This document shows, piece by piece, positions 50,204 to 52,808 of a stretch of 64,000 nt of DNA. Origin of the DNA: Pelomonas sp. Root1237 (GTDB taxonomy: Bacteria; Pseudomonadota; Gammaproteobacteria; Burkholderiales; Burkholderiaceae_C). The notes beneath the pieces are model-generated. The model was not told the origin of the DNA and ran no database searches. It worked only from the letters and a program-made list of their open reading frames with translations. The stretch is taken from the NCBI RefSeq assembly GCF_001425055.1, contig NZ_LMDK01000021.1, forward strand, positions 247,264-311,263, read 5' to 3'. Numbering within the stretch: position 1 is the first letter of the stretch; every line of letters starts with the position of its first letter. The position numbers were made by a program, and so were the translations under genes.

Positions 50204-50319
50204 GGCGCCTTGTAAGCACTCGCAAACGAGCGCTAGCGGTTGTTGGTTGCCCCCGGTGATTGCGGGCAGAATCGCCTGGATTTTCGCCGATCCGGCAATC
50301 CCCTCGGAGACCGCGCCAG

Positions 50320-51489
50320 ATGCCCGTTGCCCGCCCAGCCCACTTCGCAGTCCTTGCGACCTGCCTCGCCCTCGCGACGGCGACCTCAGCCTGGGCGCAA
50401 ACCAGCAAGCTGCCCGTCACCGCCGAACAGCGACGCGTCGCCGATCAGGTCGCGTCCGCGGGCGTGCCCCTGGCCGAACTGGCGCCCAATGCGCCGGACA
50501 GCCACACGGTGCAGCCAGGCGACACGCTTTGGGACATCTCCAAGCTGTTCCTGAAAAGCCCCTGGCGCTGGCCCGAGCTCTGGGGCATGAACCGCGACCA
50601 GATTCGCAACCCCCACCTGATCTACCCGGGCCAGGTGCTGCTGCTGGTCAAGGTCGATGGCCGGGCCCGGCTGCAACTGGCACAGGGCGTCGGCGGCAAT
50701 ACGGCCGGCAATGGCGTGGTCAAGCTGCGGCCGCAGATGCGCATTTCGGCGCTGGATTCCAGCCCCATCCCAAGCATCCCGCTGCACCTGATCCAACCCT
50801 TCCTGACCGACGCTGTCGTCTTCGACACCGATGCGCTGGCCACGGCACCGCGCATCGTCGCCGCCCAGGAAGGGCATGTGCTGCTCGGCCCGGGCGAACT
50901 GGCCTATGCGCGTGGCGATTTCGGCAGCGGCACCGACTTCCGCGTCTTCCGCAACGCCCGCCCGCTGCGCGACCCAGCCACCAACGAGATCCTGGGCTAC
51001 GAGGCCCCGTATGTCGGCACGGCTGAACTGACCCGTCTGGGCGAGGAGCGCACCGGCGCCGATGGCAAGGCCGAGATCGTGCCGGCCACGATGACCGTCC
51101 GGCAGATCAAGCAGGAGGTCGGCATCGGCGACCGTCTGGCGCCGGCACCGGCACGCAATCTCGAGCTGTATGTGCCGCACGCGCCCAGCCAGCCCATGGC
51201 GGGTCAAATCGCGGCCATCTACGGCGAGGCACTCAACGCAGGCCAGAACCAGATCGTCGCGCTCAACCGCGGCAAGCGTGATGGCATCGAGCGCGGCCAT
51301 GTGTTCGCGCTGTGGCGCGACGGCGCCAGGGTCATGGACAAGACCCAGGAGAGGGCCGAGGCCATCAAGCTGCCCGACGAGCGCCACGGCATCCTGTTCG
51401 TCTTCGAGGTCTATGAGCGCGTGTCCTATGCGCTGATCATCTCGGTGAAAGAGCCGGTTCGACCGGGCGACCGCTTTACCCAGCCTTAG
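50320..51489 (+). CDS. Exported LysM-domain protein
   Basis: A 389-residue protein with a signal peptide (hydrophobic 8-24, ending AWA-Q) and one LysM domain (about 65-115, [30 protein letters not shown] ... [11 protein letters not shown]) that binds peptidoglycan. The remaining part is beta-rich without a known catalytic domain. In Burkholderiales such a gene is regularly found before dprA. ATG 50320 is chosen for the signal peptide. Confidence 0.85.
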
Positions 51490-51506
51490 AGAATGGAGCC
51501 CCTAGC

Positions 51507-51714
51507 CCAAGGAGTACCTTGGTCGGTCTTGCAGACCGCGCTGCGGCGGGTGCCGCAGCCCTTCGGTAGGCACATCGCGCCCACTGGGCGCAATGTGTCC
51601 GGCCTCAGCCCCCGAGGGAACGGCGATGCTTGCCGGATTGACCGGCAAGCACATCGCCAAGGCGGGCCGGCTCGGGAGCGGCCCAGCGCTCGGCCCGGCG
51701 GTTCTTCGAACCGC
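51507..51714. repeat. Array of seven consecutive hairpins upstream of dprA
   Basis: Seven back-to-back inverted repeats fill the gap between the LysM gene and dprA: CCAAGG/CCTTGG (51507-51522), CGGTCT/AGACCG (51524-51538), GCTGCGGC/GCCGCAGC (51540-51559), CACAT+GCGCCC/GGGCGC+ATGTG with one mismatch (51571-51597), a 15-bp stem with a two-base bulge (51622-51658), GGGCCG/CGGCCC (51664-51684), and GCGGTTC/GAACCGC (51698-51714). The last ends two bases before the dprA ATG. GCACATCGC occurs twice in it. It carries no T-run typical of a terminator. Either a dispersed mosaic repeat or a structured leader. Confidence 0.7.
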
Positions 51715-51716
51715 TG

Positions 51717-52808
51717 ATGCTGACACCCATCGAGCTTGTCGCCTGGCTGCGGCTCACCGAGAGCGTGGGCCCGGCAGCGGCGCGGCGGCTGCTGGCCATG
51801 GCCGGCAGCCCGCAGGCTGTCTTCGAACTCCCCGCCGTCGCCCTGGACCAGGCGCTGCCGGGCAAACAGCGCGAGGGCTTCAACAAGCCCCCTGACCATC
51901 TCGACGAATTGATCGACAAGGCCCAGGCATGGTTGGCCGAACCCGGCCATGACCTGCTCGTTCTCGGCGATGCCGACTACCCACCCCGCCTGCTGGCCAC
52001 GGCCGACCCACCGCTGCTGCTGTGGCTGCAGGGCCGGCGCGAACTGCTGGGCGCGCCGTCCATCGCCATCGTCGGCAGCCGCAACCCGACCGCCCAGGGG
52101 GGCGACAACGCGCGCGCCTTCGCCCGGGCGCTGGCACGCGGTGGCTACACCATCGTCTCGGGCCTGGCCCTGGGCGTGGACGCCGCCGCGCATGAGGGCG
52201 CCCTGGACGCCGACGGCGCCACCATCGCCGTCGTCGGCACCGGGCTGGACCAGGTCTACCCGCGCCGCAACGAGAAGCTGGCGGCGCGGCTACTGGCCGG
52301 CGGCGGCCTCATCGTCAGCGAGTACTCACTGGGCACCCCGGTGCTGCCGGCCAACTTTCCGCGCCGCAACCGCATCATTGCCGGCCTGGCCCAGGGCTGC
52401 CTGGTCGTCGAGGCCGCCGTGCAGTCGGGCTCGCTGATCACGGCCCGGCAGGCCGTCGAGGCGGGCCGCGAGGTGTTCGCCATCCCCGGCTCCATCCATT
52501 CACCCCAGGCCCGCGGCTGCCATGCGCTGATCCGCCAGGGCGCCAAGCTGGTCGAGTCGGCCCAGGACGTGCTGGAGGAGCTGCCGCCGCTGGGCAAGCT
52601 GTGCGTGACGCCCGAGCCTGCCGAGACGCCTCACGAGCAGCAGGCGCTGCTGGACGCCATGGGCTTCGATCCGGTCAGCCTGGATGCCCTGATGGCCCGC
52701 TGCGGCTGGCCGGCGGCCGAGCTCAGCGCCGCCCTGCTGGAGTTGGAGCTCGACGGCCACATTGCCCGCCTGGCGGGCCAGCTCTTCCAGCGTCGACGGC
52801 AGGGATGA
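51717..52808 (+). CDS. dprA: DNA-processing protein DprA
   Basis: A 363-residue protein that loads RecA on incoming single-stranded DNA during transformation. N-terminal SAM-like helices, then the Rossmann-like core with IAIVGSRNPTAQGG, TIVSGLALGVDAAAHEGAL and VVGTGLDQVYPRRN, and a C-terminal winged helix (about 300-363). The start codon follows two bases after a hairpin, and no Shine-Dalgarno sequence is visible in front of it, which suggests translational control or a different start. Confidence 0.94.
   Translation: MLTPIELVAWLRLTESVGPAAARRLLAMAGSPQAVFELPAVALDQALPGKQREGFNKPPDHLDELIDKAQAWLAEPGHDLLVLGDADYPPRLLATADPPLLLWLQGRRELLGAPSIAIVGSRNPTAQGGDNARAFARALARGGYTIVSGLALGVDAAAHEGALDADGATIAVVGTGLDQVYPRRNEKLAARLLAGGGLIVSEYSLGTPVLPANFPRRNRIIAGLAQGCLVVEAAVQSGSLITARQAVEAGREVFAIPGSIHSPQARGCHALIRQGAKLVESAQDVLEELPPLGKLCVTPEPAETPHEQQALLDAMGFDPVSLDALMARCGWPAAELSAALLELELDGHIARLAGQLFQRRRQG

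Follow-up and report, generated by a model that had tools for sequence, protein, structure and literature searches.

Why should nearly every base between two tandem genes belong to a hairpin, and how is the second gene translated from behind them? The question is raised by the dprA gene of Pelomonas sp. Root1237, for which an earlier note on this DNA, made from the sequence alone, saw no free Shine-Dalgarno site. The locus lies in the window, by which we mean the whole stretch of 64,000 nucleotides that was analysed. The genome (G000; Pelomonas/Roseateles) is 6.43 Mb in size, and its closest named relatives, judged by dprA, are Pelomonas sp. Root1217 (92%) and Root1444 (89%), followed by Roseateles puraquae and Pelomonas sp. 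UHG3. The features of the locus are as follows.

50260..51489, + strand: LysM-domain gene, the upstream neighbour (Pfam LysM, 3.6e-11), with its TAG stop at 51487-51489
51493..51717, + strand: mini-cistron of 74 codons, read as an open frame, with no Pfam match
51498..51697, + strand: repeat core, long form, 200 nt (GCCCCTAG ... GCTCGGCCCG), its borders taken from 105 own copies
51507..51522, + strand: hairpin 1 (from sequence and fold), bigger in the mid forms of the repeat
51524..51538, + strand: hairpin 2 (from the fold)
51528..51608, + strand: optional 81-nt block (27 codons), placed by eye against the short form and from three same-site pairs of copies in G000 and its relative G002
51540..51559, + strand: hairpin 3 (from the fold)
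51570..51598, + strand: hairpin 4, with compensatory changes among 18 long copies
51603-51617, + strand: weak 4-bp hairpin, the alternative to which is a long stem pairing 51499-51503 with 51614-51618
51622..51658, + strand: hairpin 6, with compensatory changes
51664..51696, + strand: 3'-terminal hairpin, the best-conserved part of the repeat (GGGCCGGCTNGGGAGCGGCC)
51698..51714, + strand: last hairpin (from the fold), in the tail of the dprA copy and beyond the repeat core
51717..52808, + strand: dprA (Pfam DNA_processg_A, 2.1e-75; DprA_WH, 1.1e-21)

The earlier note's description of this region is borne out. Positions 51498-51714 are nearly all stem, seven hairpins are found (eight if the weak 4-bp stem is counted), and the last ends two bases ahead of the dprA ATG at 51717. 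The folding is far beyond chance: the RNA folds at -139.2 kcal/mol compared with -115.4 (sd 4.8) for dinucleotide shuffles (z -4.97), none of 200 of which reaches so low a value, and the opposite strand folds equally well (z -5.09). A terminator, which the note had also discounted, is rejected for want of a T run behind the terminal hairpin in the copies inspected. Through every one of the stems before dprA runs an open frame, 51493-51717, which the note does not mention and which we call the mini-cistron, or mini-frame. Its ATG lies 3 nt past the LysM stop, and its TGA shares one base with the ATG of dprA (TGATG, 51715-51719).

The hairpins are not peculiar to dprA. When 51490-51716 was used as a query against the same genome, at least 47 matches were returned (40 of 251 first-look candidates were scored), and the 3' motif GGGCCGGCTNGGGAGCGGCC, with up to one mismatch, matches 124 times (64 forward, 60 reverse; control, 0). 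The search for copies elsewhere in the genome that the earlier note had proposed thus finds them, and finds them scattered. The motif is present in all 20 genus genomes, with 6-124 matches each (controls, 0 or 1), and in 38 of 120 family genomes. Eight genera besides our own have 11 to 35 matches; family genomes with one or two one-mismatch matches may reflect chance. In an even sample across the order, the two of 150 genomes that match are G000 itself and another with a single one-mismatch match. Among 15 named genomes five match: Root1217 (98 matches), Root1444 (45), Pelomonas sp. UHG3 (29), Roseateles puraquae (19) and Caldimonas caldifontis (two, both one-mismatch). The phages, plasmids and viral contigs searched for the repeat yielded no match. 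For closer study we read 105 copies from G000 (3' motif, up to two mismatches) and 32 from G002, a close relative with 98 motif matches.

The repeat comes in several sizes. Among the 105 own copies, 22 are 118-121 nt (the short form), 53 are 133-138 nt (mid) and 27, including the dprA copy, are 194-219 nt (long); one is 160 nt, and two are 50 and 79 nt. The first hairpin is larger in the mid forms, an extra three-stem block is present in most long forms, and the optional 81-nt block is missing from short and mid forms alike. Where G000 and G002 each have a copy at a shared site, the two can be compared: in three pairs the size difference is exactly 81 nt (200/119, 138/219 and 79/160), five pairs are equal in size and one differs otherwise. 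The stems are preserved by compensatory change. In 34 mid copies, 15 of 46 pairs have changed on both sides, a number attained in none of 500 shuffles, and 95.6% of cells are paired, versus 33-44% when the partners are slid. In 18 long copies the figures are 12 of 60 pairs and 97.5%, versus 29-45%; a second measure, further pair types, does not set the long copies apart from shuffles (224 of 500). Because the copies are paralogues, the counts do not represent independent events. The earlier note had expected the copies of a mobile repeat to be scattered and to lack covariation; scattered they are, but their stems covary. Nor do the stems favour the sense strand. Wobble cells number 14 on the sense strand and 36 on the other in mid copies, and 32 and 21, respectively, in long copies, where 18 of them are one constant G-U pair. 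A role for the sense-strand RNA, argued from wobble bias, finds no support in these counts.

Comparison of G000 with G002 reveals turnover. We sorted by eye 21 own copies for which there is a matching place in G002: four are matched there by a copy in both place and orientation; five have one in the same gap, situated instead beside the stop of the other, facing gene; eight correspond to short gaps without the repeat, and four to other sequence. In the reverse direction, seven G002 copies could be placed, and of these two are the same, two opposite, two empty and one other. By both flanks, seven of the 32 G002 copies read share a site with one of the 105 own copies; the two sets are partly at common sites and hence not all independent. 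No exact or clean target duplication was visible by eye in the filled/empty pairs. The 'mosaic transposable repeat' suggested in the earlier note is supported by the number of copies (more than 100), by the occurrence of both filled and empty sites, and by the internal block, whose presence or absence makes a difference of exactly 81 nt. At two places in G002 (L306), the gap in which own loci L008 and L178 have the repeat is occupied by a different inverted repeat (CCACAGAGGCACAGAG ... CTCTGTGCCTCTGTG).

Copies are found predominantly behind stop codons. We could analyse 136 copies from G000 and G002, 117 with a sense upstream gene and 19 without. The in-frame stop of that gene ends at a position from -11 to +1 relative to the first base of the repeat in 110 of the 117. 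If every stop triplet is counted, 119 of the 136 have one in the 16 nt before the repeat, whereas two windows farther upstream contain one in 28 and 21 of the 136. ATGAA or ATGGA is favoured as the five bases preceding the repeat.

What lies between the borders depends upon the arrangement of the genes. For this comparison, codon-position GC, rather than annotation, was used to assign the frames of the genes, and in each of the three phases the start nearest the frame's end was treated as the downstream start. In G000 and G002 together there are 64 tandem copies with a stop at the junction; 50 of these have a start codon there as well, and 14 do not. The frame is open throughout in 41 of the 50 (shifted phases, 9 and 15) and in 30 it is 'coupled', that is, its stop lies no more than 5 nt from the start of the following gene (shifted phases, 2 and 3); the other 20 do not stop near the next start. 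Coupled frames end at preferred offsets, 28 of the 30 at -4, -1 or +1, with 13 at -4 and 13 at +1. Convergent copies, which are not followed by a sense gene, have a start codon in 28 of 46 cases, and the frame is open in only 8 of the 28 (shifted, 5 and 10). For own copies alone, open frames number 33 of 38 in tandem versus 7 of 22 in convergent settings (p 3e-5), and coupled frames 24 of 38 versus 4 of 76 shifted trials (p 4e-11). Antisense tandem copies of G000 and G002 behave likewise on the opposite strand (start in 9 of 15; open in 8 of 9, shifted 1 and 2; coupled in 6 of 9, shifted 0 and 1). Openness alone is common, being seen in 63% of shuffled repeats, so the argument is carried by the end point of the frame and by the convergent control. 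In other genera, numbers are small and the shifted controls less clean. In G145 and G048, sense copies are coupled in 7 of 9 cases (shifted, 0 and 4) and antisense in 3 of 3 (shifted, 0 and 0). In G090, a one-contig genome from another genus, the short form is 78-80 nt, often with ATGA near both borders, and 14 of 17 analysed copies are antisense in tandem gene pairs, none being sense; antisense copies are coupled in 5 of 11 (shifted, 0 and 2) and open in 11 of 11, yet nine are also open in one shifted phase.

We think it probable, on the evidence of sequence, that this folded repeat, mostly situated behind stops and often carrying a stop-to-start frame between tandem genes, is a mobile mini-cistron predicted to preserve translational coupling. 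The principal alternative draws upon the REP, BIME and REPIN elements, palindromic intergenic repeats that occur in high number and are associated with RAYT (Y1) transposases. It would have the repeat moved by such an enzyme, with the position behind stops arising from purifying selection only and the frames as by-products. The Pelomonas repeat is likewise palindromic, intergenic and abundant. There are three Y1_Tnp matches in its genome, one to four in each of 13 of 13 genus genomes searched, and matches in 88 of 120 family genomes; the two-sided changes in the stems fit single-stranded DNA as the substrate, and wobble cells are not more frequent on the sense strand. The proposal is nonetheless unlikely. 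Y1 does not track the repeat: despite its 35 motif matches, G090 lacks any Y1_Tnp match, and the 1.5-kb flanks of two of the three own Y1 genes have no repeat copy, which leaves RAYT unsupported as the mobiliser. Selection on position alone, moreover, gives no bias in frame, and the bias observed is absent from convergent copies. The repeat also differs from REP-type elements in being longer, multi-stemmed and frame-bearing. One Y1 (RAYT-like) gene lies at L238 (G000:C19:328174), behind a gene that by eye resembles a dGTPase.

We regard as more improbable still the idea that these are cis-acting RNA elements that stand behind genes, where they protect 3' ends or terminate transcription, and that have spread by being useful. 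Most own and G002 copies are indeed in sense beside the upstream stop, and the 3' hairpin is stable, but in the copies inspected it is not followed by a run of T, most of the analysed copies in G090 are antisense, and the repeat is missing from G002 at many own sites. When 18 loci and the hairpin region of the window were scanned against Rfam, nothing reached the gathering score of a family. The sub-threshold matches were six in the first scan, the best being SrbA at 27.6 versus 69 bits on the minus strand; SrbA recurred, and then two matches were seen, in later scans.

A mobile mini-cistron would also account for dprA itself, the junction of which with the LysM gene we read in 18 genus genomes (G000 and 17 others). 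Six of these (G002, G009, G003, G015, G004 and G014) have a direct TGATG overlap between the two genes, and eight others a gap without the repeat. The long repeat is present at dprA in G000 and G016, and in G001 as a diverged long copy that the motif search missed; G007 (L110) has in its place a mini-frame of 30 nt (ATGAGGCCCGGCGCCCGGCCCGAGCACTGA) with +1 spacing on both sides, which looks like a last remnant of the repeat. Of the genus genomes other than G000, 14 of 17 thus have no repeat copy before dprA, the exceptions being G016, the diverged G001 and the remnant-like frame of G007. A riboswitch-like leader dedicated to translational control of dprA, the earlier note's other suggestion, has adjacency and a strong fold in its favour, but with more than 100 copies at other genes, none at dprA in those 14 relatives, and a sequence that reads as a frame re-making TGATG, it is scarcely credible, and copies elsewhere and the junctions of relatives together rule out an RNA specific to dprA. 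The note's missing Shine-Dalgarno site we accept, with a different reason: it likely reflects the TGATG stop-start overlap seen in six genomes, re-made by the repeat's own frame. The four mini-frames at this junction, which are four cases and not a statistic, comprise 74, 71, 76 and 9 codons. All are open and coupled at both ends, with upstream spacings of +3, 0, +2 and +1, and downstream spacings of -1, +1, +1 and +1, respectively. The three long ones have fold z values of -5.3, -2.7 and -1.4, little fold being left in the 76-codon version. Since the fold declines while the mini-frames stay open and coupled, the frame outlasts the fold at this junction.

How might such an element work? Ribosomes would read the mini-frame, and by so doing would spare the downstream gene, such that insertions within operons become tolerable. 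At dprA, an ancestral LysM-dprA TGATG would have been split by the insert and then remade by the insert's own frame. The fold would serve movement, probably as single-stranded DNA or as transcript, rather than control of dprA; we infer this because the fold is weak in a diverged copy that has kept its frame, because wobble cells show no sense-strand preference, and because both orientations occur. Movement itself would depend upon a transposase-like activity supplied in trans. A bolder version, which we offer tentatively and rather doubt, is that the insertion machinery aims at stop-start junctions, by way of translation termination or the TGA/ATG overlap. Mini-cistrons with their own start and stop, a covarying fold for movement and a swappable, in-frame 81-nt block might then form a class of bacterial transposable element able to enter operons while leaving translation unbroken.

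The closest parallel is with the mycobacterial interspersed repetitive units (MIRUs), reportedly described by Supply et al. in 1997. MIRUs are described as possessing an internal frame coupled to the downstream gene with -4 spacing (PMC12548453, PMC3914561), and as forming head-to-tail tandem arrays of 46-101 bp (PMC3914561). The Pelomonas repeat, too, has many interspersed copies (124 motif matches; control, 0), and of the 50 tandem copies that have a start, 30 have a frame coupled downstream (13 at -4, 13 at +1). It differs in belonging to another phylum, in its size (mostly 79-219 nt), many covarying stems and optional 81-nt block, in using both -4 and +1 spacing, and in lying behind stops in operon and convergent settings alike. 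The best reading is that it would work like a MIRU, and on the strength of these features we call it 'MIRU-like'. Miniature inverted-repeat elements, or MITEs, are short, occur in many copies and have no movement gene of their own. The Pelomonas repeat resembles them in all three respects, but no terminal inverted repeats are visible in its 105 copies (5' GCCCCTCG, 3' CTCGGCCCG), nor by eye any clean target duplication. HEARO/IscB omega RNA elements insert behind ATGA or GTGA. The Pelomonas repeat is folded and often preceded by the same bases, but the Rfam scans, which covered 18 loci and the hairpin region of the window, gave no HEARO match, and the repeat contains no long gene. In a literature search of titles and abstract openings, no description of this repeat was found among the matches listed, where the mycobacterial MIRUs were the only repeats of the kind. 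The Pelomonas repeat would thus represent a second, highly folded family, with evidence in its sequences of selection on the frame (tandem versus convergent, same repeat, same genome). If so, translational coupling would be a general means for operons to tolerate mobile DNA within them, with more than 100 insertions serving as a natural experiment on the value of coupling.

Some smaller features of the repeat deserve mention. A homologous 3' tail beyond the core is suggestive only: 14 of 150 copies score above the 99% null, versus 4 of 137 in a downstream control. Among the motif matches listed for a few relatives (G015, G040, G090, G112 and G134) are pairs about 80-140 nt apart. Some copies (L016, L019 and L312) have an extra block of ~75 nt (GTGAACTGGAGTCGG...GGCCCATGGCAG) within the terminal hairpin. 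Finally, the pyrimidines at 51506 and 51523, at the base of hairpin 1, form a non-standard pair (G.A or A.G on the opposite strand) that changes almost only jointly: among 137 copies, C-T occurs 60 times, T-C 60, T-T three, A-T three and C-C twice, with nine unplaced.
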